Source: a virus
Strand: one strand, 5' to 3'
Virus record (IMG/VR): IMGVR_UViG_3300032770_000004
Coordinates: 105,963-169,962 of that record
DNA: 64,000 bases
A program made the position numbers and the translations under genes. Positions 34,553 through 64,000 of this stretch are shown here, one piece after another. The notes under the pieces are model-generated. The model saw only the letters and a list, made by a program, of their open reading frames with translations. It had not been told where the DNA came from and did not search any database. How positions within the stretch are numbered: the first letter of the stretch is position 1; each line of letters begins with the position of its first letter.

Positions 34553-34653
34553 CGGATGTGCCACCAAACGAGAACCCAATAGCATAGGTATCCCAAAAAA
34601 GCCATAATCGCTACTGACAACAACATCAAGCCAGTTTCTTTGAAGGAATTCAT
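34549..34653 (-). CDS. 34-residue single-span membrane protein
   Basis: ATG at 34653, TGA at 34549-34551. Sequence begins MNSFKETGLMLLSVAIMAFL and ends GYLCYWVLVWWHIR: a charged N-terminus and one hydrophobic helix with aromatic end. It joins its neighbours by ATGA overlaps on both sides, which argues that it is translated. It is the size of small phage membrane peptides such as holin-like or regulatory peptides; no function is shown. It is below common ORF-calling limits and would be missed by annotation. Confidence 0.6.
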   Translation of the reverse strand: MNSFKETGLMLLSVAIMAFLGYLCYWVLVWWHIR

Positions 34654-35732
34654 GGAGTTCCAGGACTACTGCCGATCAGATTGATTGGAAGGTACTTACA
34701 GCTGAGCCCGCCGTCTTCGCCCGAATCGGCATCAATCTCACCAGCATACCACACTTCTTTGATGTTGGTGAAGAGGTGAGTACCCGTAAAGACTACGGTT
34801 CCACCGCAAGTGATGGTGAGAGTGCCGGTAGGCAGGTCGGTGGATCCAGGCAGGTCGTACCAGTGAACAGCCACATAGTATGGATGGGTATTCACGGGTT
34901 GTACAATCTGGGTAATTTCAGGACCGGTGTCATAAATGTCATCATGGTTCAGGTGCGGATCATTGAAGCCGCCATCATCCCAGGTTGGATTGGACCCGCT
35001 GGTGCAATTCGCATAGTAGCAATCGTGCGTCCAATCGGTGAACCAGCTGGTATAGGAACCACCGTTGTCAAGCGGGATACCTAGATGTAGGTCGAGATCT
35101 TCGTTATAGAGATCCCATGTTAGCGTGGCGACAAGATCGCATCCTTCATCGATGATGCCATTACAGTTGTTGTCAATACCATCACAAATTTCGGGCGTTG
35201 GAGTCACAGCACCTTCGCAATCACCATAGCCGCCGTCTTCGCAAAACTGCGTACCATACCGACAAGCGGTGTTGGGGTGTTCCAAATCTTGTGGATTCCC
35301 TGGATAGCAAGGCTGAGCTGGGATATTCTCGTCGATCAACCCATTGCAATTATCATCCCTGCCGTTACAGACTTCGGGCTGATTGAACTCCTCCGGGTGT
35401 GTTTGACAGACTTCCCAATGGCTGTCTCCGTCGCAGTCCTGCCAAGATTGAAAACCGCACTGATCACGGCACGCACGAGGAGCTGCGTTCCCAACTACGC
35501 CGTCACAGTCTAAATCCTGGTTGCCACAAGTCTCGGTGGTCGGCAAAACAGCGCCAATACAGGCGCTTGCTTCGCAATCGAACCAGCCGGGCTTACAGGC
35601 GCCACGTTCTAGGTTCTCGACGGTGATGTTTGGATCTGGGGAACAGGCCTGTCCACAATAGACATCGGGCCCAAGCTTCGAAGGTCGACAGCTAAAGAGA
35701 ATCAGCAATAGAATGCTAATCCTTTTTACCAT
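34650..35732 (-). CDS. Lipoprotein with MopE-type metal-binding repeats
   Basis: 360 residues. Signal peptide with lipobox: MVKRISILLLILFSC, Cys15. Then MopE-like repeats: CGNQDLDCDGVVGN at about 68-82, CNGRDDNCNGLIDENIP and CDGIDNNCNGIIDEGC, each with Cys and Asp residues for disulfide/Ca or Cu-type binding. The second half is a beta domain with many Trp, His and Asp (DLDLHLGIPLDN, HPYYVAVHWYDLPG). The repeat family is found mostly in surface proteins of myxobacteria and relatives, a hint about host origin. A lysogenic conversion or exclusion role is inference. Confidence 0.75.
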   Translation of the reverse strand: MVKRISILLLILFSCRPSKLGPDVYCGQACSPDPNITVENLERGACKPGWFDCEASACIGAVLPTTETCGNQDLDCDGVVGNAAPRACRDQCGFQSWQDCDGDSHWEVCQTHPEEFNQPEVCNGRDDNCNGLIDENIPAQPCYPGNPQDLEHPNTACRYGTQFCEDGGYGDCEGAVTPTPEICDGIDNNCNGIIDEGCDLVATLTWDLYNEDLDLHLGIPLDNGGSYTSWFTDWTHDCYYANCTSGSNPTWDDGGFNDPHLNHDDIYDTGPEITQIVQPVNTHPYYVAVHWYDLPGSTDLPTGTLTITCGGTVVFTGTHLFTNIKEVWYAGEIDADSGEDGGLSCKYLPINLIGSSPGTP

Positions 35733-36564: not shown

Positions 36565-36758
36565 TAGAACACCAAGTCTTCTGGAATGTCATCGTCTTCG
36601 AATTCTTCTTCGTCGACCTCAATCAGGCCGCGCTCAATAAGCTCGGTGACGACCTCCTGGACGATCTCTTGTCTAACTGGTTTAGTTACTACCTTCGGTG
36701 GTAAGTATTCAGCAAAAACATCTTGGACTGCTTCTTCGAATTCTGCACGTGTTGCCAT
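36564..36758 (-). CDS. Hypothetical acidic helical protein
   Basis: 64 residues: EFEEAVQDVFAEYLPPKVV, an IVQEVVTELIERGLIEVDEE helix and a strongly acidic tail. Small acidic proteins of this kind can be anti-host inhibitors or DNA mimics, but there is no direct evidence here. One-base TAATG-type junctions on both sides place it in the operon. Confidence 0.5.
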   Translation of the reverse strand: MATRAEFEEAVQDVFAEYLPPKVVTKPVRQEIVQEVVTELIERGLIEVDEEEFEDDDIPEDLVF

Positions 36759-37756
36759 TAAAAACTCCCTGCGTATGCCTCGTTGAAATTTTGCACTGCT
36801 TGCTTGATGATGTCGTTGGATTGACCGGTCGAGATCCGATAGAAATTTGGAGGGCCACCAAACGCAGTGCCATTGACCATCATAACCTTGGAGTCCTTTA
36901 GGGCCTTAGCAAATTTCTCAAGAGAAACGACTCCGATCCATTGAAACATGCCAACGGTTTTTTGACAGTAACTGCCACGACCAGCGAGCCAAACAATTTC
37001 ATTCGCGTTGTCAATATGTTGGGAATGAACTTTCTCGAAGATTTGGTCTCGAATTAGATGGGTGTTACGAAGAGTAGCCGCAACATGGTATTGACTGATG
37101 GTAGGTACGCCACTGGTAGTCATTTCTACATACCGGCTAGCATGATCAGCCAAGAATTGGTCTTCAGTTACAAGCCAACCTAGACGGACACCGGGCGCTC
37201 CGAGCATCTTTCCAGCACTCCATACTGAAATCTTAGCGGGTACTGGAAGATCCGAGGGCCATCCGTACGCCCTATGTGCATAGGCAGCATCCCAAATGTC
37301 AACGGGCTGTGTGAAGTTCTTGACCAGAAATCGAAGCGACAGTTTGCCATCTGGATTGTTTGGAGAAGTGATTACTTTAATGCTATGATCCCAGAACTTC
37401 TTGGGCTTATTGAAGCGCAATCCATGAAGGCTAGCGATCGTCGGATAGGTCGGCCAGTATGGTACGTCCATGCTCATGTTGTCAATCTTGGGGTCTTTCT
37501 GCTTGAGGGCGTAGACAGCAGCATGAAGGGCGTGCTTGGCCCCTAGAGCGATGACAATCTTCTTACCGGGATGAAGCTTTTCTAATTCGGCTAGAAGCTC
37601 TTCAGATGGCTTGATGTCTGGATAGGACAAGTCAGGAGGATAATGGCGCGGGTAGTACTGCTTCATCGCGTTGCGAAGTACAACCGGTTCACCGATGGCG
37701 AGGTTAATACCGTCGTGTGATCCCCTAACTAGCTGCTTATCGCCTTCCCAGTTCAT
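36758..37756 (-). CDS. PLP-dependent aminotransferase, class I/II fold
   Basis: 332 residues from ATG 37756, which shares a base with the preceding stop. Fold-type I features: SPNNPDG (131-137, Asn for PLP), DIWDAAYAH (153-161, Asp156 and Tyr159), SAGKMLGAPGVRLGW (180-194) with Lys183 as the Schiff-base lysine and Arg191 for phosphate. Family members transfer amino groups between amino acids and keto acids; the alliinase/tryptophan-aminotransferase group and the aspartate group share this pattern. The substrate cannot be read. It sits among small unknown genes and is an unusual gene for a phage. Confidence 0.8.
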   Translation of the reverse strand: MNWEGDKQLVRGSHDGINLAIGEPVVLRNAMKQYYPRHYPPDLSYPDIKPSEELLAELEKLHPGKKIVIALGAKHALHAAVYALKQKDPKIDNMSMDVPYWPTYPTIASLHGLRFNKPKKFWDHSIKVITSPNNPDGKLSLRFLVKNFTQPVDIWDAAYAHRAYGWPSDLPVPAKISVWSAGKMLGAPGVRLGWLVTEDQFLADHASRYVEMTTSGVPTISQYHVAATLRNTHLIRDQIFEKVHSQHIDNANEIVWLAGRGSYCQKTVGMFQWIGVVSLEKFAKALKDSKVMMVNGTAFGGPPNFYRISTGQSNDIIKQAVQNFNEAYAGSF

Positions 37757-38358
37757 TACCAAGTCGCCTTCAGGTTAAGGTCGACCTCGACACTACGAGG
37801 AGACCCACCTGGGAGTCTTAGCATAGGACCAGCACTGAGTCCAAGGTAAAACGGGCCGAAAATGCGGCGATCAACTTCGGCAGCTACGTGAAGGTCAGGA
37901 AGTGAAGTGATTCCGCTTACATTACCGCCTACCTGGACTCCAAGAAGCCAATCAGGACGTGGACTTTCAACCTTCACGTCGACCTGCTTTTCGACGATTC
38001 GATCGACATATTCAGTCTTGGTGACTACCTGCGTTACAACTTTCTGTTCCTGAGTCTTCGACTTTTCTATGTCTTGAACATCAGTAGTAGTCTTCTGGAG
38101 CTTCGTACCGTTAGGCTTGGTGACAACGACGGTGACGGTATGGGTCTTGAAGTTCTTCTGAAACTCTGCCACACGTTTGTCTACTTCAGCTTGCACCATC
38201 TGCTCGTCGACCACCTTCTGCACCTGGGTGACCACCTTCTCTTGAATCTGAACAGAAGGCTTTGGAGCCGAATAGCGACCCACAAACAGGCCAATCAAAA
38301 GGAGGGCCATCATTGCTAGATATTTCCAGTACTTTTTCAAAAATTCAATGTAGGTCAT
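37756..38358 (-). CDS. Membrane-anchored coiled-coil protein with beta C-terminus
   Basis: 200 residues. N-terminal transmembrane helix (YLAMMALLLIGLFVGRYSA, residues 13-31) with basic start, then a Val/Gln/Lys/Glu coiled-coil (residues 40-130), then a beta domain (LLGVQVGGNVSGITS, IFGPFYLGLSAGPMLRL) ending NLKATW. N-in/C-out anchor followed by a periplasmic coiled coil resembles an inner-membrane spanin, but the C-terminal barrel-like part does not. ATGA overlap with the DnaB gene. Confidence 0.5.
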   Translation of the reverse strand: MTYIEFLKKYWKYLAMMALLLIGLFVGRYSAPKPSVQIQEKVVTQVQKVVDEQMVQAEVDKRVAEFQKNFKTHTVTVVVTKPNGTKLQKTTTDVQDIEKSKTQEQKVVTQVVTKTEYVDRIVEKQVDVKVESPRPDWLLGVQVGGNVSGITSLPDLHVAAEVDRRIFGPFYLGLSAGPMLRLPGGSPRSVEVDLNLKATW

Positions 38359-52452: not shown

Positions 52453-55089
52453 TTACCCACAAGATCCTGCCTTGCTGATTTCACAGATATCCGTACCTTC
52501 GACAAAGACTTCACCGACGTGTTTAATTGCGGTTGAATATTTGACTGGGGATAACGGCTGGCCACCACGTGCTCCATCTGGGTAAACAGTCACTCCACGA
52601 AGCTTCGGGAGGTACTTGATGAGCATTGTACCAAATTCGCGAACCTTACTGTCGTTGTTCAACTCGGATCCCCATGAAGGTAGATTGATAGTCGAGCTAA
52701 TTCCGTGGTCGACATACTGCTGAACCCAAGCCTGGAATGCCACGCGGCGTTCCACATTTTCTGCAAGAGTGTAGGCATCTTCGATGATGTCAGGATTCAC
52801 ACCAGAATCAATCAAACGCTGTGCGGTTGGATCCACAACATACTGATACTGAACCAGCTGGCCCTTTAGATAGCGACGCTTATAGGCAACGCAAAAAATG
52901 GGCTCAATTCCAGTAGTGGTCTCGGCAACGATGCCGATTGTTCCCGTGGGGGCAATAGCACGAGTCTTGACAGGAACAGAGAGGTCCCATTCCTTGGCGT
53001 ACTTCTTTGCGTAGACATCAGAGGTGGCATAAATCTTAAGGTACTCTTCCAAATCTGGATCCGGGCCATATGTCTTACCATGCATCAATAGCCACTCGTG
53101 AAGGCCCATTAGACCCAAACCAAGGCGACGATTTTTAGTGCGGATTTTGTCAACTAGAGGGTAGGGAACATCCGAATAGACACTTCCAGCTAGAAGGAAA
53201 GCGGTTGCCAATTCCACTGCGCGTTTCATTTCTTCCAAGGACTCAATACGCGAGAGATTAATACTGCCAATGTTACAGATGTCACTATCGTCAGAACTGG
53301 TGATTTCAGTACAATTGGCAATGACAACGCCTTCCGCAACAAAGGAGTGCTCTGGAACACCTACATCACAACAGTAGACATCCTGATCCACATCAGATGT
53401 GACCGAAACGACCTTGATGGTAGTAGAACGGTAAGGTGTGTGTGGATTTGGCTTGATGCGAACAGTCGGAATCAGCTCAATGAATCTGTTGACAGAACTT
53501 TCGTTGACGGTCAGATTCCATCCTTGATGGTTGCCAAACGTAGAAATACCAGCAGCAGAAATACCAGATTGGATACCCAAGGTTTCAAGCGCCCTACGAG
53601 CACCTTCCAAAAAAGACCTATGTACAGACGACAATCGAATTCTGTTTTGATCCTTATCGTAGGACCCGTCTGAGTCAAAAAGACCTGCGATAAAGGACGC
53701 TGTAGATGTCACACGATCACACTGTTCGTTAAACATGTCCATGGATTCTGGATAGATTTCTTTGGTTCGACCTCGAAATACCTCATCCTTAAGGTACATT
53801 CTAGTATAGCCACGCCCATCTCTTTCGGTTACCGACTGAATTAGCGGACTACCTGCCATAGCGCTTACGCACTTTTTGGATTCGTCTGTACAGAAAGTGA
53901 TTTCGGCACGATTTTCGTAGCGCTTACAGAAGCTACCGTCTCCATACGTGTATCCTAAGACGTATGACTCACGGTCTCGGTTACCTACCTTGACTGAAGG
54001 TAGAGACACTGCCAAAACGTCACCTTCTTCAAGAAGCCCGGCAGGAATGCGTTCTGTCTTGACGAGTTTTCTACGCTCACCAGCGCCTTCGTATCGTTCT
54101 ACTAAAAACTCATGAGTAGGATCGGCAACGATCTCGCGACCACCAGTCATTGTCACCCTAACCGTAGCAGCCATCTCTTTGGTGCGCTTAAATTCTGTCG
54201 TAGCCCATTGTGAACCGGTCCAGACTGTCACCTTATGGCCAACGATAGCACCTACCTGACGGTATCCGGTAGAAGTCAATACCCAAGTATCGGCGGCCAC
54301 TGGAGCGTTGCGAAGGTTCTCCTTCACGTTCTTACCGATATCGATACTGAATCCAGGCTCAGCTGTCTTGAGCATTTGACGCACTGTCGCCCAGTACACT
54401 GATTGTGCATATCCATGCTTTTCGTGTTTAGAGTCGTGATATGCCTCGAAGAATTCATCATCAAGGATGACCGAAATGTTGGTGCCGTCCATTGTGGCTG
54501 GGAAGTTGTAGTCTTTTTCCTTCAGAGCACGGACTTCGGGGATCCAATTTTTGAGGGTGATGAACTTCTGGCTATCAGCATGGCTCCAATGAAGGCCCGC
54601 CCAAATGGCTGAACGGCGAGAGCCGCCTTGCATAATGCCTCTACCAGCTTCATTGACCATCTGCATTAGAGCAAGCGGGCCAGTAGCAAATCCACCAGTC
54701 TTACGAATGGGTTTGCCTTCAGCTCGAACATCCGAATACACTATGCCAATCCCGGCTCCAGTCATAAGAGCCATAGAGGATTTATGCATCAAGTCAGCCC
54801 AACCCTCGCGGCTATCTTCAGCACGCATCAGGAGGCAGTTCTGGGTCTGATGGAATGGACGACCAGAAGCATAAAGATATCGGCCTCCAGGCATGAATTT
54901 GCGATCAGCGATCAGCTTCTCGATTTCTTTCACGAGAGGCTTTGGTGCATTGACAGCACGCATGACTGCATGAGATACACGCTTAGCAATTTCTTCCCAT
55001 GTTTCTTTTTTACCATCAGCAAGAGTATGAGAATACTTCTGGAGCATAATCGCGTGCGCGAATGGAGAAAACGACTTAGGGTCTTTCAT
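52453..55089 (-). CDS. nrdJ: Class II (B12-dependent) ribonucleotide reductase with intein
   Basis: 878 residues from ATG 55089 (AAGGAAAAG site; a TTG start at 55113 is weaker). Extein about 548 residues: an N-terminal PGGRYLYASGRPFHQTQNC segment with the first redox Cys (Cys85), AGIGIVYSDVR, the thiyl-radical loop CNIGSINLS, then RLGLGLMGLHEWLL and RAIAPTGTIG, and the C-terminal cysteines ICEISKAGSCG. The NLRNA-CTEITSSDDSD-type junction is the intein site. Class II enzymes need adenosylcobalamin and make dNTPs without oxygen. No NrdB-type subunit is seen, fitting class II. ATGA overlap with the HNH gene upstream. Confidence 0.87.
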   Translation of the reverse strand: MKDPKSFSPFAHAIMLQKYSHTLADGKKETWEEIAKRVSHAVMRAVNAPKPLVKEIEKLIADRKFMPGGRYLYASGRPFHQTQNCLLMRAEDSREGWADLMHKSSMALMTGAGIGIVYSDVRAEGKPIRKTGGFATGPLALMQMVNEAGRGIMQGGSRRSAIWAGLHWSHADSQKFITLKNWIPEVRALKEKDYNFPATMDGTNISVILDDEFFEAYHDSKHEKHGYAQSVYWATVRQMLKTAEPGFSIDIGKNVKENLRNAPVAADTWVLTSTGYRQVGAIVGHKVTVWTGSQWATTEFKRTKEMAATVRVTMTGGREIVADPTHEFLVERYEGAGERRKLVKTERIPAGLLEEGDVLAVSLPSVKVGNRDRESYVLGYTYGDGSFCKRYENRAEITFCTDESKKCVSAMAGSPLIQSVTERDGRGYTRMYLKDEVFRGRTKEIYPESMDMFNEQCDRVTSTASFIAGLFDSDGSYDKDQNRIRLSSVHRSFLEGARRALETLGIQSGISAAGISTFGNHQGWNLTVNESSVNRFIELIPTVRIKPNPHTPYRSTTIKVVSVTSDVDQDVYCCDVGVPEHSFVAEGVVIANCTEITSSDDSDICNIGSINLSRIESLEEMKRAVELATAFLLAGSVYSDVPYPLVDKIRTKNRRLGLGLMGLHEWLLMHGKTYGPDPDLEEYLKIYATSDVYAKKYAKEWDLSVPVKTRAIAPTGTIGIVAETTTGIEPIFCVAYKRRYLKGQLVQYQYVVDPTAQRLIDSGVNPDIIEDAYTLAENVERRVAFQAWVQQYVDHGISSTINLPSWGSELNNDSKVREFGTMLIKYLPKLRGVTVYPDGARGGQPLSPVKYSTAIKHVGEVFVEGTDICEISKAGSCG
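53314..54303 (-). other. Intein with LAGLIDADG homing endonuclease in nrdJ, Pro at position 1
   Basis: 330 residues (protein residues 263-592). N-terminal block A: PVAADTWVLTSTGYRQVG, with Pro where the first Cys normally is, but the A-x-D-T spacing intact. Block B-like GGREIVADPTHEFLV. Endonuclease motifs LGYTYGDGSF (378-387) and FIAGLFDSDGS (466-476). Block F VYCCDVGVPEHSFVAEG, block G GVVIAN followed by Cys+1. The penultimate residue is Ala not His. Inserted at the conserved NA-CTEI site. The intein removes itself from the protein and can spread by homing; splicing chemistry must be unusual without a position 1 nucleophile. Confidence 0.85.
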
Positions 55090-55436
55090 TTCTTTTCCTT
55101 GGGCGGCTTCCAAACGGTGTCATCTTTGGGCCGGATCGATTCATAGTTTTGGAGATAGTCTGCGACTCGTTGGGCTCTACGTACGTTAATGCCCCTACCC
55201 ACAAAGGTCGTATTACAACGAAAACAAAGCAGCCCGCGCACGTAAAGTTTACGTTGCTCGGGCGGCATTTTCTTCCATTTCTTGACATGGAAGTGGTCTA
55301 TACAAAGACGGCCCTTGGTTGGTTCTTGTTCGCAAACGAAGCAGACGCCACCTTGGCGATCCAAAATTGCTTGCCATTCTTCAAGAGACAGGCCGTATTT
55401 CTTCAGCGTGGCTGGTGAAGGAGCAAGTACTTTCAT
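55086..55436 (-). CDS. Endonuclease VII-family HNH endonuclease (free-standing)
   Basis: 116 residues, all EndoVII core: LKKYGLSLEEWQAILDRQGG, CFVCEQEP, LCIDHFHVKKW, RGLLCFRCNT, RRAQRVADYLQN. DHFH is the catalytic motif. No N-terminal extension, unlike the copies at 2756 and 12114. 5' side: GGCGTAATCTTC just after the stop of the preceding gene. 3' side: ATGA overlap with nrdJ, so the nuclease is fitted between two genes. It lies next to an intein gene, making two mobile nucleases in 2.5 kb. Confidence 0.87.
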   Translation of the reverse strand: MKVLAPSPATLKKYGLSLEEWQAILDRQGGVCFVCEQEPTKGRLCIDHFHVKKWKKMPPEQRKLYVRGLLCFRCNTTFVGRGINVRRAQRVADYLQNYESIRPKDDTVWKPPKEKK

Positions 55437-58088: not shown

Positions 58089-58333
58089 ATGATTTCTGGA
58101 TCCTTCTTGTCTTTGGCATGGTCCTTAGTTAGTTCGACCGCATCTCGATTGCGTTCTAATGCACGTGGCATCAGACCATTGTCAAGACGCTCCATTACGG
58201 TAGCGGAGCCATTATTCATCATGGTCATCGGCTGACCGCACTCGCATACTATTGATCCACTCTTCGGCAGCTCCGGGAGTAGCTTCCGTTTCGATCTCCC
58301 GCAGCTCGAACAGTTCCATTTGTACAGGGCCAT
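58085..58333 (-). CDS. Small zinc-ribbon protein
   Basis: 82 residues from ATG 58333, which shares its base with the TAA of the upstream HNH gene. Begins MALYKWNCSSCGRSKRKLLP, a CSSCG and later CECGQP making a zinc ribbon of the FmdB-like kind, then TMMNNGSATVMERLDNGLMP and a charged tail. A longer frame from 58441 is the HNH gene in another phase. Function unknown, possibly regulatory. Confidence 0.6.
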   Translation of the reverse strand: MALYKWNCSSCGRSKRKLLPELPKSGSIVCECGQPMTMMNNGSATVMERLDNGLMPRALERNRDAVELTKDHAKDKKDPEII

Positions 58334-58779
58334 TATCTGTCCTTGTGCGGACAGATACCGCCATTTCGTTGTCGTCCAAGATTGCAGTTGAAACACATGA
58401 TTTGAAACGCATCTTTTGGATATCCTTGTTGTTGAAGCCATCGATACATATGGATCCCAGCACGACGATCTCCCAGAACTTCTTTTCGATGCTTAGTACC
58501 GTTTCCATTTACATGATCTATGGTAAGAAATAATGGGGAGGTTTCCCCGCAACATACACAAGTGCCGCCATAAGCGGCCATTGTCTGTTGTGTGATTACT
58601 TTACGTCTTCGAGCGTTGATCTTAGCGTTAACGCCAGGATGCTCTTTGTTCCATTTGCGTACTCTAGCGTTCTGTTTCTCTCGAAATTTGGAATCGTTTT
58701 TTCTGCGTATTCTACGAGCTGCGTTGATCTTGTCGCGATTTTTTTCTCGGTATCTGCGTGCTTGTTCTTTGGTAGCCAT
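58333..58779 (-). CDS. HNH endonuclease (free-standing)
   Basis: 148 residues from ATG 58779. N-terminal 75 residues are basic helices (ARRYREKNRDKINAARRIRR, KFREKQNARVRKWNKEHPG). Core: AAYGGTCVCCGETSP, LFLTIDHVNGNG, DAFQIMCFNCNLGR. The IDHVNG and late CxxC make an HNH site. 5' side is GGGTAATCT starting at the groEL stop codon; 3' side meets the zinc-ribbon gene as TAATG. So it is inserted between groEL and that gene. Confidence 0.87.
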   Translation of the reverse strand: MATKEQARRYREKNRDKINAARRIRRKNDSKFREKQNARVRKWNKEHPGVNAKINARRRKVITQQTMAAYGGTCVCCGETSPLFLTIDHVNGNGTKHRKEVLGDRRAGIHMYRWLQQQGYPKDAFQIMCFNCNLGRQRNGGICPHKDR

Positions 58780-58789
58780 GGACAATAGA

Positions 58790-60619
58790 TTACCCGCGTT
58801 CGTCAGCAGGGTTAGTGTTCGCGTTCCTCAGGAACTCGGCCGTTTCGCGGGCTTCGCTGGTTTCAAGTCCATGGTCACGACGGAATACCACAGTTCCTCC
58901 ACAAGTACCAAGCAAAGAAGCAATGGAAATGCTGTTCTTAATGGCATCGCGAACAGCCGGTAGGCTATCCAATAGGTATGATCCATTCTCAAATGCCTTT
59001 ACGTTCTTCTGTTCTAACAAATCGAAAACAATGCCACTGCTAAGTTTTTCAGTGTGCTTGAGCATTTCTTCGTCGGAATAGCCAGCGTTTGTAAATAGCC
59101 GCTTTATGGGTTCTAGGAGAGCTGGAGCTAGTACTTTCTCAATAATCCACATCTCGTCGAAACTGGGCGACCAACCGTACTTAGCGCTGAACTTAGCGGA
59201 TCCTTCAGTTCCCCACGATGCGAACTCATCGCTCATCAATTTGAGAAAGTAGCCGCCTCCGTAAAGAGCACCATTGGCTAGAGCGCCGCGTACCGCGCAT
59301 ACGGCATCTTCGGCTCGGTCACGGCGTTCTTTGACTTCACCGTTGCTAGAACCATAGACGATAAGCTTGGCGATACCACTGGTCATCTTGGCAATGCGCT
59401 CTCGCAACATTCTCTTCTCCAGCTCGGAGTTGGTTGGATCCTGCTCGCGCTTGGCAATTCGATCGACCCGTTCCAAAATCAGTAGCTCATCACGGAATCC
59501 AATGATGTTAGTTCGAAACCTACTCGCCTCGAATTGCGTGACTCCTACACCAAGAGCTTCGATTTGGAAATTCTGGAACGGGAAATTGATCTGATCCATG
59601 ATGGTTCCACCAGTGATAGCGGCAAGGTCTTGTAGGAAGTCCAGCTGACCTGTTTTGATGGGACTAACCGGAGCAAGAAGTGGATAGACGTTCAGGGTAC
59701 CTTGCATCACAAATCCAGCTGCAAGTTGGGCAAGTACTGTCTCCGAGAATCCAGTCGCTACTATCACCACATTGTGGGTGAGCTTATGTTCGCCAACAGA
59801 CTTACCGTCGCTTACGTGTTGAGCAATTAGGCTTAGCACCGGGTAAATCGTATTAAAGTCATTGATTGTCCCGTGGTACAAAAGAAAACTGGGTCTCTCT
59901 AGTACACAGGTTTGAGTGGCTGGATCGTTAATGAATTTGGGGTAGAACATACGGCACGAATCTTCGTATCCGATTGTTACGGGATAGCCCTCAATCTTTT
60001 GTACTTCGTAGTGTGAAGGACCATTGGCTTCGACGATTGTCACGTTGCCCTCAGAACCGATGATGTCAAAACACTTCATAACGGCATCGGCTAGCGGGCC
60101 ATCACCGTTAGCGCTGATTTTGGCAACACTGCGGCACATAGCCCTTCCTTCTTCGGAAACTAGGTCGGGCTTGACCTTGACATCTTCCATGACTGGCAGG
60201 ATTGCTTTGGCATAGGCATCCTGAAGTACTCGCACCACGCGTTGGGGGCTAACATGTGGATTTTTGTTCGTATACGCGATTGTATGGCGCACAATAGCTT
60301 CGGCAAGAATTGTCGCAGTTGTAGTGCCGTCGCCAGCTTCTGAGGCCGTTCTGATCGCCGCATCACGTGCTGCTTCCATTAGGACATGTGCAGACGCGTT
60401 ATCGAAGCCCAGGGCTCGAAATACAGTAACCCCGTCCTTTGTGATGACCGGAGGGAGATCTACTTCCTGGTGCTCAATTACGACGTTCTGGCCACCAGGA
60501 CCGAGGGTAGCACCGACTAGGTCGCTACAGGTCTTCAGGGTCTCAAGTACCAGCCTTTGGAGTTCCGGACCCTTCCGGGTCATTTCCTTTGCCACGCTTT
60601 TTACTTTTTGGTATTGCAT
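58790..60619 (-). CDS. groEL: GroEL-like chaperonin
   Basis: 609 residues, longer than 547 of GroEL. ATP-site motifs: ATLGPGGQNV (37-46), TKDGVTV (60-66), AGDGTTTATILAEAIV (95-110), later ERRDRAEDAVCAVRGALANG and GGGYFLKLM. The apical domain is divergent, and there is no C-terminal GGM tail. Phage chaperonins such as those of EL-type phages fold phage proteins in place of host GroEL; no GroES is visible here. The start has an AAGAAGG site and overlaps the wHTH gene by 77 bp. Confidence 0.9.
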   Translation of the reverse strand: MQYQKVKSVAKEMTRKGPELQRLVLETLKTCSDLVGATLGPGGQNVVIEHQEVDLPPVITKDGVTVFRALGFDNASAHVLMEAARDAAIRTASEAGDGTTTATILAEAIVRHTIAYTNKNPHVSPQRVVRVLQDAYAKAILPVMEDVKVKPDLVSEEGRAMCRSVAKISANGDGPLADAVMKCFDIIGSEGNVTIVEANGPSHYEVQKIEGYPVTIGYEDSCRMFYPKFINDPATQTCVLERPSFLLYHGTINDFNTIYPVLSLIAQHVSDGKSVGEHKLTHNVVIVATGFSETVLAQLAAGFVMQGTLNVYPLLAPVSPIKTGQLDFLQDLAAITGGTIMDQINFPFQNFQIEALGVGVTQFEASRFRTNIIGFRDELLILERVDRIAKREQDPTNSELEKRMLRERIAKMTSGIAKLIVYGSSNGEVKERRDRAEDAVCAVRGALANGALYGGGYFLKLMSDEFASWGTEGSAKFSAKYGWSPSFDEMWIIEKVLAPALLEPIKRLFTNAGYSDEEMLKHTEKLSSGIVFDLLEQKNVKAFENGSYLLDSLPAVRDAIKNSISIASLLGTCGGTVVFRRDHGLETSEARETAEFLRNANTNPADERG

Positions 60620-60923
60620 CCTTCTTCTTTACCTCTGTCAGGGTAAGTACTCTGACACATATTGGGTTTTTGGTAACGGGATCAATGATCCCGCCCACAT
60701 ATTGATAGCTGATCAGTCCTTCGCGGTACATTATAGCAAGGTGCTTGCGAACACACGCGACCGACTTCTCCACGGTTGTGGCAATCTCTTGATTTGTCAA
60801 CATGCCACCGTTACGGGCAATCGTCGAAAGAATGGCAATCCTGGTTATGTCGCCTACATTCTTCCGGTACTCCCGGATCTTGGCACGACGTAGCTTTTCT
60901 TTGGAATCATCGTCGTTTGACAT
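60543..60923 (-). CDS. Winged helix-turn-helix regulator
   Basis: 126 residues from ATG 60923 (a GTG one codon earlier is possible; AAGG site). Core: ITRIAILSTIARNGGMLTNQ, EIATTVEKSVACVRKHLAIM, YREGLISYQYVGGIIDPVT, the ArsR/MarR-like winged helix with recognition helix at KSVACVRKHLA. C-terminal tail is basic and disordered. First gene of the minus-strand operon, next to a control region with repeated inverted 12-mers, so it probably binds them and represses both promoters. Confidence 0.75.
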   Translation of the reverse strand: MSNDDDSKEKLRRAKIREYRKNVGDITRIAILSTIARNGGMLTNQEIATTVEKSVACVRKHLAIMYREGLISYQYVGGIIDPVTKNPICVRVLTLTEVKKKDAIPKSKKRGKGNDPEGSGTPKAGT

Positions 60924-60953
60924 CACGATACCTTACCATGTTCTGAAATACCC

Positions 60954-60981
60954 GTCTAGGTAGCACCCATGCTACCAAGAT
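60954..60981. repeat. Operator-like inverted repeat 1
   Basis: GTCTAGGTAGCA (60954-60965) and TGCTACCAAGAT (60970-60981), spacer CCCA. Most degenerate copy; lies about 30 bp upstream of the wHTH start, where a bound repressor would block it. Confidence 0.7.
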
Positions 60982-61015
60982 AAATGTAAAGAAGATGGAC
61001 ATTTTTAAAAAGGGC

Positions 61016-61043
61016 GTCTAAATAGCAGGGGTGCTACTTAGAC
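61016..61043. repeat. Operator-like inverted repeat 2
   Basis: GTCTAAATAGCA (61016-61027) and TGCTACTTAGAC (61032-61043), spacer GGGG, one mismatch between arms. Confidence 0.8.
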
Positions 61044-61089
61044 AGAGGGAGAACGATTTTTGGAGGGGGGATTCGACCCCCCTGGGGGG

Positions 61090-61101
61090 TGCTACTTAGA
61101 C
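61090..61101. repeat. Operator-like half site 3
   Basis: Exact TGCTACTTAGAC without a second arm; it follows a GGGGGG-attcga-CCCCCC hairpin. Confidence 0.7.
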
Positions 61102-61183
61102 CTCAACGAGAATTCGAGGGGTTAACATGACTCGATGAAACATAGGGCTCTCCAATTTTGCTTATGGAAACAGAAAATGGGGG

Positions 61184-61205
61184 AGGGGGTCGGACCCCCT
61201 TTTTG
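61184..61205 (+). terminator. Intrinsic terminator-like hairpin
   Basis: AGGGGGT, CGG loop, ACCCCC then TTTTT. Short GC stem followed by U-tract on the plus strand. It would stop a plus-strand transcript inside the control region, or act as an attenuator. Confidence 0.55.
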
Positions 61206-61257
61206 GGTACTTTTCGATTTTAAGTATTTGATTTCGTTCATAATTGCTCTATCGATG

Positions 61258-61283
61258 TGCTACTTAGACGGGTCTAAGTAGCA
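61258..61283. repeat. Perfect operator-like palindrome 4
   Basis: TGCTACTTAGAC (61258-61269), 2-bp spacer GG, GTCTAAGTAGCA (61272-61283): perfect 12-bp arms. Arm order is opposite to repeats 1 and 2. About 225 bp upstream of the UvsW gene. Confidence 0.85.
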
Positions 61284-61347
61284 GGGGAGGGGGGATACCC
61301 CCCATATGACATTAGAGGTCTAAATCGCGCAGAGGTCCCAGTTACAT

Positions 61348-61368
61348 GGGCCACCGTTACGGTGGCCC
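61348..61368. other. Perfect 9-bp stem-loop
   Basis: GGGCCACCG, loop TTA, CGGTGGCCC. Very stable; no T-tract after it. Could be a structural element of an origin or a terminator for leftward transcripts. Confidence 0.6.
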
Positions 61369-61387
61369 CCGTTAACTAGTTATTACA

Positions 61388-61408
61388 TTAGATCTAACGT
61401 TAGATCTA
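61388..61408. repeat. Doubled TTAGATCTA
   Basis: TTAGATCTA (61388-61396) and again (61400-61408), spacer ACG; each contains palindrome TAGATCTA. Probably a second type of protein-binding site near the plus-strand start. Confidence 0.6.
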
Positions 61409-61483
61409 TCAGTAAGTAACAAAAGATTAATAGGAGGGGAATGTCAACACAGGGAAAATTCATGATCTTGATATACTCGGAGG

Positions 61484-62989
61484 ATGAGGATCAAGGAACC
61501 TACCAAGCTAATCATTGGACCAGTGTCATCAAGTGCTGTACTGGACCAACTGAAAGCAGGATTGACATATACCGACAAGAAGGTAGAGCAAGAATTAATC
61601 AGATTCAAGAGGAATGGAGCTAGATGGTACGGAGAGGAAGAGTACAAACTCAAACTAGCTGAGATTAAGTCAAGAATCCCTAAGTGCTTACTCTTCGAAG
61701 GCGAAGAAGGATACTGGACGTATAGTGGACTGAGTCAATACGTACAGAGCAAAACTAAATACACCCTAGTCAATGAGGTGGTCTATCCTGAGCCTAAGTT
61801 ACTCCCATGGGATCAGAAGCCATCTTATGAAATGTACCCATACCAAAAGGAAGCGATGGAAAAGCTCCTAGAAGCAAAGCATGCAGGAGTAGAAATGGGT
61901 ACAGGTCTAGGAAAGAGCTTCATCATCGCTAATGTTGTCAAACAGCTAGGTCTCAAAACCATCATCATGACTCCTAGTGCTAACATTACTGAAAAGCTAC
62001 TAACTGACTTTACTCGATGGTTCGGCAAGAAGAACGTTGGAGCTTTCTTCGATGGGAAGAAAGAAACCAAGAAACTAATCACTATCGGTACTGCCCAGTC
62101 ATTCACTAGAGTCAAAAAGGGATCCGTTCTATGGAAGGAACTACAAGCAACTAAGGTATTCATTGTTGACGAAAGTCATCAATGTCCTGCCAAGACTCTT
62201 GCTTCTGTATGCTTCGGACTAGTCAAGGACGTTCCTTACAGATTCTTCTTCTCAGCTACTCAGTTTAGGAATGATGGATCTGATCTCCTCCTTGATGGAA
62301 TCACTGGCCCTATTGTCTACAGAATGACTGTTCGTGAAGGTGTTGACAAAGGATTTCTAGCCAAGCCAATCTTCAAGATGTTCAATGCTCCTATGAATGG
62401 AGACTATTGGAGTAATGATCCACTAGACATGACTCGCCATCACCTCCTCTACAATCCCTCCATAGCTAAGTCCATCGGAACGATGGCTAACTATGCAGTA
62501 AAAGCAGGGTTTCCTGTTTTGATCCTAATCGAAGAGGTAGAACAGTTTACAAAGCTACTTCCATGGCTAAGTTATGAGGTTGGATTTGCTCATGGTTCTC
62601 TGACTGAGGACAATCGAGGAAAGGTGCCTATGGAATTTCACAAATCTGATCCTACAGAACTTGTCAAGAGATTTAACGAAGGTAAACTGCCAATTCTCGT
62701 AGGAACATCATGTATTTCTACTGGTACTGACATTCCTGTCGTTAAGTTTCTGGTATACTGGCAGGGTGGATCTAGTGAGATCCAGGTGAAACAGGCTATC
62801 GGACGTGGTACCCGAATCACCTCTAACAAGAATTTTTGTCACATAGTTGACTTTAAGGTGGATGACAGACACATGGATTCAAATGGTCGATGGAAGCGAG
62901 GTCCCGTAGGACGCCATGCTGACATTAGGAAAGAGATCTACGATGACTTGTATGGTCCTGTCACCATGGCGGAACTGATGAATGGCTAA
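61484..62989 (+). CDS. UvsW-like SF2 DNA helicase
   Basis: 501 residues, matching the size of T4 UvsW (503). P-loop MGTGLGKSF (138-146), DESH (229-232), FFFSATQF (motif III), LVGTSCISTGTDIP and SEIQVKQAIGRGTR (V, VI). The N-terminal ~120 residues with GARWYGEEEYKLKL match the UvsW N-domain type. UvsW unwinds R-loops and branched DNA and switches origin-dependent to recombination replication. A GGAGG at 61479-61483 touches the ATG directly, and a -10-like TATACT lies 7 nt before; the mRNA may be almost leaderless. Leads the plus-strand operon. Confidence 0.88.
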   Translation: MRIKEPTKLIIGPVSSSAVLDQLKAGLTYTDKKVEQELIRFKRNGARWYGEEEYKLKLAEIKSRIPKCLLFEGEEGYWTYSGLSQYVQSKTKYTLVNEVVYPEPKLLPWDQKPSYEMYPYQKEAMEKLLEAKHAGVEMGTGLGKSFIIANVVKQLGLKTIIMTPSANITEKLLTDFTRWFGKKNVGAFFDGKKETKKLITIGTAQSFTRVKKGSVLWKELQATKVFIVDESHQCPAKTLASVCFGLVKDVPYRFFFSATQFRNDGSDLLLDGITGPIVYRMTVREGVDKGFLAKPIFKMFNAPMNGDYWSNDPLDMTRHHLLYNPSIAKSIGTMANYAVKAGFPVLILIEEVEQFTKLLPWLSYEVGFAHGSLTEDNRGKVPMEFHKSDPTELVKRFNEGKLPILVGTSCISTGTDIPVVKFLVYWQGGSSEIQVKQAIGRGTRITSNKNFCHIVDFKVDDRHMDSNGRWKRGPVGRHADIRKEIYDDLYGPVTMAELMNG

Positions 62990-64000
62990 GATTGAGATTG
63001 ACAAACACTTCAAACTTTTCGCATCGAATCTCGAACAAGCCCTAGAGAAGTACGAGGCCGTTGAGGATGAGGCACTTCTAGCCCATCAACGTGAACAGAT
63101 CAGAAGACTGGTCTCGCTAGAAACCAAGCTACGAGAAGTATTGATCAAGCATCCATGGGGTCCTGGAGTCTATAAGGACTTCATCAAATTCATTCGCGAC
63201 AAGCGAAAGAATGTATTGGCAGCACGTCCCTATTTTCGTGAACGTCAAGGGGTCTTCACTCGCCATATCAGTGTCGCTCTGATGAACAGAAATGACAAGG
63301 CTCTGTATCGCTATCGATTTAACTGGTCGTTCGTAGACTACGTGTTAAACGCACGTAAATGGCCTCAGGGAGGAAAAGTCGCCTCGTTGGCTAGGGAGAT
63401 AGCCTCCGCACGTCAGGAGCTGCTAGAACAGAATTTACCGCTTGCTATCAGTCAAGCTCGAATCTTCTGGGCAGGTACTCCTAAGAGTCATTTGTCATAC
63501 ATGGACGTAGTGCAGATCCAATGTCAAGCCCTCCTATTGGCAATCGACAAGTTTGTTCCTCCTAATGACAAAAGAATGTCCGAGAAGGCTAGCCTAGCGG
63601 CATTCCGTGTCTTTAGGGCTGTAGCTATTGGCATCATGCGCAGAGATCGCGTGAACGCCTATAGCGAAACGTTGATCCACTTCTATCCCAAAGACAAAGC
63701 CATCATCTATCGAGCGCTGAAGATTCTCCGCAAGACAGTAGGCGATGTCGATTACGACAAGCTAGCTAAAGAAGTGAACAAAGAACTTGACAACGAGAAG
63801 ATTAAGACCAATGGCAAGGAGGTAGCCGGTCTAGTAGCGGGGGCGAGTACAATCAGTGCTGACTTTAGCCCGGATCCAGATGGCGAGACCATCATCGATA
63901 CGTACCCTGAAGAACACGAAACTCGGCCTGATACAATGATGGAGGAGCATCAAGCGCTGACTACTATGAGAGTAGCCTCTGAAAATCTCAGCTTGCTTGA
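62982..64000 (+). CDS. Sigma-70-like factor (3' end outside window)
   Basis: At least 339 residues, ATG 62982 overlapping the end of the UvsW gene by 8 bp. Residues ~160-230 (QNLPLAISQARIFW, a LSYMDVVQIQCQALLLAIDK segment, then ASLAAFRVFRAVAIGIMRRD) follow the sigma region 2 pattern (NL-x-LA-x-S-x-A, LDL-x-Q-x-G-x-x-x-L-x-x-A-x-DKF). An acidic loop later (ADFSPDPDGETIIDTYPEEH, then ETRPDTMMEEH) is like the region before sigma region 4. N-terminal ~150 residues are extra. It may guide host RNA polymerase to phage promoters. Family is inferred from pattern only. Confidence 0.6.
   Translation, partial: MAKIEIDKHFKLFASNLEQALEKYEAVEDEALLAHQREQIRRLVSLETKLREVLIKHPWGPGVYKDFIKFIRDKRKNVLAARPYFRERQGVFTRHISVALMNRNDKALYRYRFNWSFVDYVLNARKWPQGGKVASLAREIASARQELLEQNLPLAISQARIFWAGTPKSHLSYMDVVQIQCQALLLAIDKFVPPNDKRMSEKASLAAFRVFRAVAIGIMRRDRVNAYSETLIHFYPKDKAIIYRALKILRKTVGDVDYDKLAKEVNKELDNEKIKTNGKEVAGLVAGASTISADFSPDPDGETIIDTYPEEHETRPDTMMEEHQALTTMRVASENLSLL

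Follow-up and report, generated by a model that had tools for sequence, protein, structure and literature searches.

What does a cluster of repeated half-sites do between two divergent operons of a large phage? The DNA analysed here, referred to as the window, is a stretch of 64,000 nucleotides which runs to the end of a virus record of 169,962 bp; in it, an intergenic region of 558 bp separates a leftward wHTH–GroEL gene pair from a rightward helicase–sigma gene pair, and eight half-sites of the TGCTACTTAGAC type lie inside this region. The original prediction read them as an operator array that could be a genetic switch and possibly the origin of replication, with the product of the adjacent winged helix-turn-helix (wHTH) gene as the likely ligand.

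Genes flanking the array

The genes next to the array are the following:

58790..60619, minus strand: phage GroEL-like chaperonin (Cpn60_TCP1, 1.3e-34; phrog_5725, 4e-72), downstream of the wHTH gene
60543..60926, minus strand: wHTH gene heading the leftward replication operon; start codon GTG (127 aa) or ATG at 60923 (126 aa)
61484..62989, plus strand: SF2 helicase (ResIII, 1e-17; phrog_16, 8.7e-56), first conserved gene of the rightward operon
62982..63998, plus strand: sigma-factor-like gene (phrog_351, 0.0016), running off the window

Leftward from the array, the wHTH and GroEL genes are followed by those for an SbcC-like AAA protein, ribonucleotide reductase, PolIII alpha, a RecA-like protein, a Toprim primase and, at the far end of the operon, a DnaB-like helicase. 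On the other side, the sigma-factor-like gene has a counterpart in Myxococcus phage Mx1 which is annotated "putative RNA polymerase sigma factor". A 60-aa open reading frame with a strong ribosome-binding site (AGGAGGGG) is present on the plus strand at 61441–61623 and overlaps the helicase start in another frame.

The wHTH gene postulated next to the array is real; its product matches HTH_5 (2.4e-6) and HTH_24 (4.9e-6) above the Pfam cut-off, HTH families being its only Pfam matches, and the AlphaFold model is a winged helix with helices at residues 4–38, 44–51 and 55–67 and a two-strand wing, the C-terminal 30 residues of the 126-aa protein being modelled without structure. A C-terminal helicase-loader interaction domain is not visible in it, and PHROG contains no match. 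Fold comparison returned general wHTH regulators (MarR ZitR, TFE-alpha), with lambda-O-like proteins weaker and further down; these matches are generic for a wHTH and not diagnostic. Searches of phages and viral contigs by tblastn or by pattern recovered no relatives of the protein, and those described below were found through synteny alone.

Such an arrangement would suit a purely transcriptional operator, with the wHTH protein acting as autorepressor or as early-to-late switch on divergent promoters and the origin lying elsewhere: the wHTH gene is the first leftward gene, the array fills the space between two divergent operons, the protein is small, and its fold matches are mainly general regulators. 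The probability given to this explanation falls well short of even.

The half-site array

The half-sites are arranged as follows:

60954..60965, minus strand: half-site TGCTACCTAGAC, left arm of pair 1, one mismatch to TGCTACTTAGAC
60970..60981, plus strand: degenerate half-site TGCTACCAAGAT, right arm of pair 1, three mismatches, after a 4-bp spacer
61016..61027, minus strand: half-site TGCTATTTAGAC, left arm of pair 2, one mismatch
61032..61043, plus strand: exact half-site TGCTACTTAGAC, right arm of pair 2, after a GGGG spacer
61090..61101, plus strand: exact single half-site TGCTACTTAGAC, unpaired
61258..61269, plus strand: exact half-site TGCTACTTAGAC, left arm of pair 3, arm order reversed
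61272..61283, minus strand: exact half-site TGCTACTTAGAC, right arm of pair 3, after a GG spacer
61318..61329, minus strand: weak half-site CGCGATTTAGAC, three mismatches, may be due to chance

Compared with the 12-mer TGCTACTTAGAC, half of the eight sites are exact, two have one mismatch and two are weak. The array itself was recovered as first described, with three inverted pairs separated by 2 or 4 bp (CCCA in pair 1, GGGG in pair 2, GG in pair 3) and an exact single half-site; the reversed arm order of the third pair is equally borne out, pairs 1 and 2 pointing inward and pair 3 (61258–61283) being a perfect palindrome. When a weight matrix derived from seven sites was run over the whole window, the same seven ranked at the top with at least 14.8 bits (next best, 12.4), and the weak site at 61318 was outside the top 14. 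A search of the full record, as had been suggested, found the 12-mer nearly confined to this locus, not scattered away from promoters: every one of its four exact copies falls inside the intergenic region, and of seven copies that differ at no more than one position, six do. The repeat density of the array was reached in none of 60 dinucleotide shuffles and in none of 300 in a separate run; repeated 8-mer pairs number 69, versus 6.8 ± 3.1 in 300 shuffles. Exact inverted-pair patterns of the motif were not found in IMG/VR or GTDB genomes, and a DNA similarity search with the array region gave no matches.

Short repeats spread in some genomes, and the array might be a repeat of this kind, or a product of chance, without function; near-confinement to one locus, together with the same position being filled independently in many relatives, leaves this explanation strongly disfavoured. 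Site centres are 62, 66, 175 and 53 bp apart, in both orientations, and the sites do not form direct repeats of about 17–22 bp in regular helical phase; this irregular spacing, unlike that of tandem iterons, argues against an origin. Inverted pairs would fit a dimeric repressor.

Hairpins and AT-rich stretches

Further elements of the intergenic region are:

61062..61082, plus strand: G/C hairpin 1 GGAGGGGGGATTCGACCCCCC
61180..61204, plus strand: G/C hairpin 2, with T5 after it, resembling a rightward terminator
61200..61249: AT-rich segment (72% AT), candidate unwinding element
61284..61303, plus strand: G/C hairpin 3 GGGGAGGGGGGATACCCCCC, abutting pair 3
61348..61368, strand not assigned: perfect hairpin GGGCCACCGT/TACGGTGGCCC
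61375..61424: AT-rich segment (74% AT), which includes the palindrome AGATCTAACGTTAGATCT (61390–61407)

The G/C hairpins that had been noticed beside the array are indeed there (at 61062, 61180 and 61284); all three are G-run/C-run structures sharing one orientation, and they are found nowhere else in the record. It is conceivable that inverted pairs and hairpins work at the RNA level, as terminators or attenuators of leader RNAs, since pair 2 and the T run after it read as a leftward terminator, hairpin 2 resembles a rightward one, and the region folds as single-stranded DNA far better than shuffled sequence (z −8.3). Yet the 12-mer is exact in the isolated half-site and in the pair with reversed arms, an Rfam search of the region gave no credible match, and the corresponding slots of two relatives (L016 and L127) hold direct tandem repeats without hairpins; because of these non-hairpin repeats the idea of an RNA hairpin set was put aside as improbable.

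A scan of the array region for sigma-70-like promoters found none, which counts against a purely transcriptional operator, with the reservation that the promoter type of this phage may not be the sigma-70 one. DnaA boxes are absent from the window, which counts against an origin.

The same slot in Mx1 and other relatives

The window phage is a member of a family of large phages related to Mx1, its nearest named relative (46.5% identity for the helicase, 46.3% for GroEL). In the circular genome of Mx1 (OR576727; 169,621 bp) the slot is located at about 169.2–169.6 kb, and the order is replication operon, GroEL, the HTH protein WNM70306, intergenic repeats, a kinase-like gene, helicase, sigma factor, terminase, portal and capsid. 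Gene order, HTH gene and intergenic repeats are thus as in the window; the motif (GGGAC[GT]TTAA) and the P-loop kinase-like gene between array and helicase are not. This gene (about 190 aa) has the same place in most relatives and is missing at 61330–61484 in the window phage. The announcement of the Mx1 genome mentions neither an origin nor an array (PMC10720576), and Mx1-like phages are virulent (PMC6070905).

Scanning IMG/VR with GroEL and helicase profiles yielded about 30 loci (L numbers) with divergent GroEL and helicase genes. Throughout these, the slot separates the replication operon from the helicase–sigma–terminase operon, and most of the loci have a small wHTH gene there, 72–140 aa in most members; the small size of these proteins, and a helicase-loading domain that is not visible, speak against an origin. 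The wHTHs of the relatives share a wing signature around W-x-N-x-R, of which the invariant R alone is preserved in the window protein.

Significant repeats (p < 0.01) are present in 18 of 23 wHTH-type slots versus 3 of 60 coding controls; the other five slots, which lack detectable repeats, weigh against the origin reading. The motifs differ between lineages. In L127, CTCGGCTACAG is repeated in a 21-bp tandem, in L016 GACAATCCTGCCACCC in a 22-bp tandem, and in L013 GTGAATGACCACCTTG with a spacing of 21–22 bp; such tandem iterons are not what a purely transcriptional operator would lead one to expect. Palindromes form the arrays of L006 (GGACATTATGTCC) and L008 (GTGAAYRNNYRTTCAC), TGTCAA[AG]TGCC is the motif of L121, L103 and L104, and GGGAC[GT]TT is the array core in both Mx1 and L101. 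All matches are in the slot for the contigs of L006, L016 and L008, as are five of seven for that of L127, and the shorter TGTCAARTGCC has scattered matches also elsewhere in its contigs.

Some slots have additional features. That of L032 (2940–3025), where the wHTH is a different one, contains clustered AGATCT repeats plus a G-run; the window likewise has AGATCTAACGTTAGATCT and G-runs. ORFs recognized by eye as GIY-YIG-like or HNH-like are fused to or overlap the slot wHTH in L103 (2845–3483), L121 (2778–3176) and L130 (2790–3308), and look as if homing endonucleases target the locus. The helicase gene of L015/L125 encodes 843 aa with a split tblastn match, which suggests an intein or insertion.

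Initiator genes in the slot

In L005, L014, L031, L107 and L128 the slot is occupied by two genes, the first replisome-organizer-like and the second for a DnaB-like helicase. The first matches PHROG "replication initiation protein" in L005 (1.4e-13), L014 (8.5e-25) and, weakly, L031 (0.0088), and the slot helicase of L005 matches phrog_19 at 2.9e-40; the assignments for L107 and L128, and of DnaB in L014 and L031, rest on reading the translated genes. Further, the wHTH of L016 matches PHROG "replication initiation O-like" (7.7e-9) and HTH_36. A tree of GroEL from 33 loci includes four of the initiator–DnaB members, which form one group among the wHTH-type members (support 92/71); this nesting is consistent with a single replacement. 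A nested clade with replication initiator and DnaB in the very same slot argues against an array of purely transcriptional function.

It also argues against a segregation or packaging site, that is, a wHTH-bound centromere-like array (as in TubR–tubC) or a pac site. A small wHTH gene does adjoin a repeat array, and in Mx1 the terminase is 5.6 kb from it; however, the slot alternates with replication-initiator genes, and the virulent Mx1-like lifestyle would make stable partition unnecessary. Such a site is very improbable, and its tubulin-type form was rejected, as the record has no tubulin-like partner gene (no match to PF00091).

The L107 phage has a promoter-like element, TTCGCTATA, which occurs 12 times in 40 kb of sampled stretches (L206–L215; mirror control, 0). 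Related TTCGCTA elements often form divergent pairs flanking the slot (L107, L128, L005, L014, L115), and in the window phage and Mx1, elements of both kinds are missing or no more frequent than expected by chance. Possibly, the phage sigma factor of the L107 clade recognizes the TTCGCTATA-type element.

Strand composition

The detrended cumulative GC skew of Mx1 is lowest at the array, nearly as low at 26 and 145 kb, and highest near 92 kb. With the coding strand as covariate, the best origin in a two-arm model of Mx1 coincides with the array for GC (0 kb; t 5.1) and lies at −4/0 kb for AT (t 3.7/3.6), and pooling over seven genomes gives t 5.6 (GC) and 4.6 (AT) at the array, all as values which ignore autocorrelation, with skew computed on stretches and the record treated as circular. 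Switches at the slot after control for strand, clearest in Mx1, are at odds with a purely transcriptional operator. For the window array, a GC-skew check for an origin had been proposed, and its outcome is divided: the array itself (0 kb) scores t 3.2, a position at −36 kb does equally well, and the AT skew of the window phage shows no switch. This tie and the missing AT-skew switch, as well as the absence of an individually significant GC-skew switch in four of five sampled relatives, count against the origin reading. The suggested origin is favoured by the strand-controlled skew and by the replication-initiator genes in the relatives' slot, and is not proven by them.

Coupling of wHTH and array motif

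Across 18 loci, the sharing of array motifs tracks wHTH similarity (Mantel r 0.56, p 0.0002). Much of this signal comes from the trio L103, L104 and L121, in which GroEL is 77–82% identical and the recognition helix is one and the same (GLKPRMVR); once the trio is collapsed, p is 0.12, a further point against the origin reading. Beyond the trio, Mx1 and L101 are the informative case left: they have a common array core, their GroELs are 50% identical, they are not sisters in the tree, and their wHTH pair is the fifth most similar of 153. It is likely that the wHTH binds its own array, and the pair of protein and array seems to change its specificity quickly. The proposal that the wHTH is the ligand receives indirect support, from the conserved architecture of the slot as well as from motif sharing that follows wHTH similarity.

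Proposed function of the array

The chances appear evenly balanced that the array consists of wHTH sites making up an origin of replication of the iteron type, which probably doubles as a divergent operator; of the parts of this reading, origin function stands midway between doubt and confidence, and some operator role is likely. As to the genetic switch first envisaged, it is unlikely to govern lysogeny, since a search for an integrase (PF00589) gave no match in the record, which may be incomplete, and the Mx1-like kin are virulent; what likely stands is an early/late or autoregulatory operator.

Located between the leftward replication operon and the rightward helicase–sigma–terminase operon, the array would be the control centre of the genome. 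Binding of the wHTH protein to the half-sites would be cooperative, with dimers sitting on the inverted pairs, and at saturation the protein would repress its own leftward promoter. The loaded array may then open, aided by the AT-rich stretches and hairpin-prone DNA, and recruit DnaB/primase of the phage, whose genes belong to the same operon as the wHTH gene; replication would proceed bidirectionally from there, which would explain the change in strand composition at this place. Extended to the virulent large-phage family as a whole, the proposal is a tentative one, still short of even probability: a stand-alone wHTH of about 70–130 aa would be the origin-recognition factor, array and protein would turn over together and give each lineage a private origin, and the module would once have been replaced in place by a conventional initiator–DnaB pair.

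Likeness to known systems

Lambda O binds four iterons (PMC7466680), and the window is similar to a lambda-type origin in that the gene for a phage-encoded winged-helix DNA-binding protein adjoins clustered repeated sites, with AT-rich DNA nearby and replication genes next to it; in relatives, the slot is taken up by O-like initiators or by tandem iterons. In contrast to lambda, the sites in the window are intergenic, not within the initiator gene, and are irregular inverted pairs, DnaB is encoded at the far end of the operon, and the wHTH has neither a PHROG match nor a helicase-loading domain; homology to the O-like family was seen for the L016 counterpart and not for the window protein. Iteron plasmid origins have 2–7 repeats of 17–22 bp bound by winged-helix Rep proteins (PMC4980987). 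The 21–22-bp spacing in L127, L016 and L013 is like that of RK2, R6K, P1 and pPS10; unlike there, one WH domain is present instead of the two of Rep, DnaA boxes are missing, and the kin are virulent phages. The array therefore resembles a lambda or iteron-plasmid origin and is not classed as one, owing to the irregular inverted pairs, the lack of O homology and of a helicase-loader domain, and the lack of DnaA boxes.

Operators of the lambda OR type consist of several paired sites between divergent operons by a small HTH gene. Paired sites in such a position are also found in the window; its array is larger, however, the arrays of the relatives sit in a replication-initiator slot, and there is no integrase and the kin are virulent.

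For most large virulent phages the origin has yet to be mapped; the conserved slot with its lineage-specific arrays supplies a candidate for a whole family, and one that can be tested in Mx1, which is in culture. If wHTH and array change specificity together, they offer a natural series in which the evolution of DNA-binding specificity can be followed, and this may be why related phages spare each other's replication from interference.

Other genes of the window phage

An intein carrying a LAGLIDADG homing endonuclease splits the gene for the large subunit of ribonucleotide reductase (52453–55113, minus strand). A free-standing HNH-like endonuclease gene (58333–58785, minus strand), recognized by eye from CxxC...DHVNGN and lacking a Pfam match, overlaps small ORFs between the GroEL and SbcC-like genes. 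The phage also encodes an aminotransferase/alliinase-like protein (36758–37762, minus strand) and MopE-like metal-binding repeats (34650–35732, minus strand).
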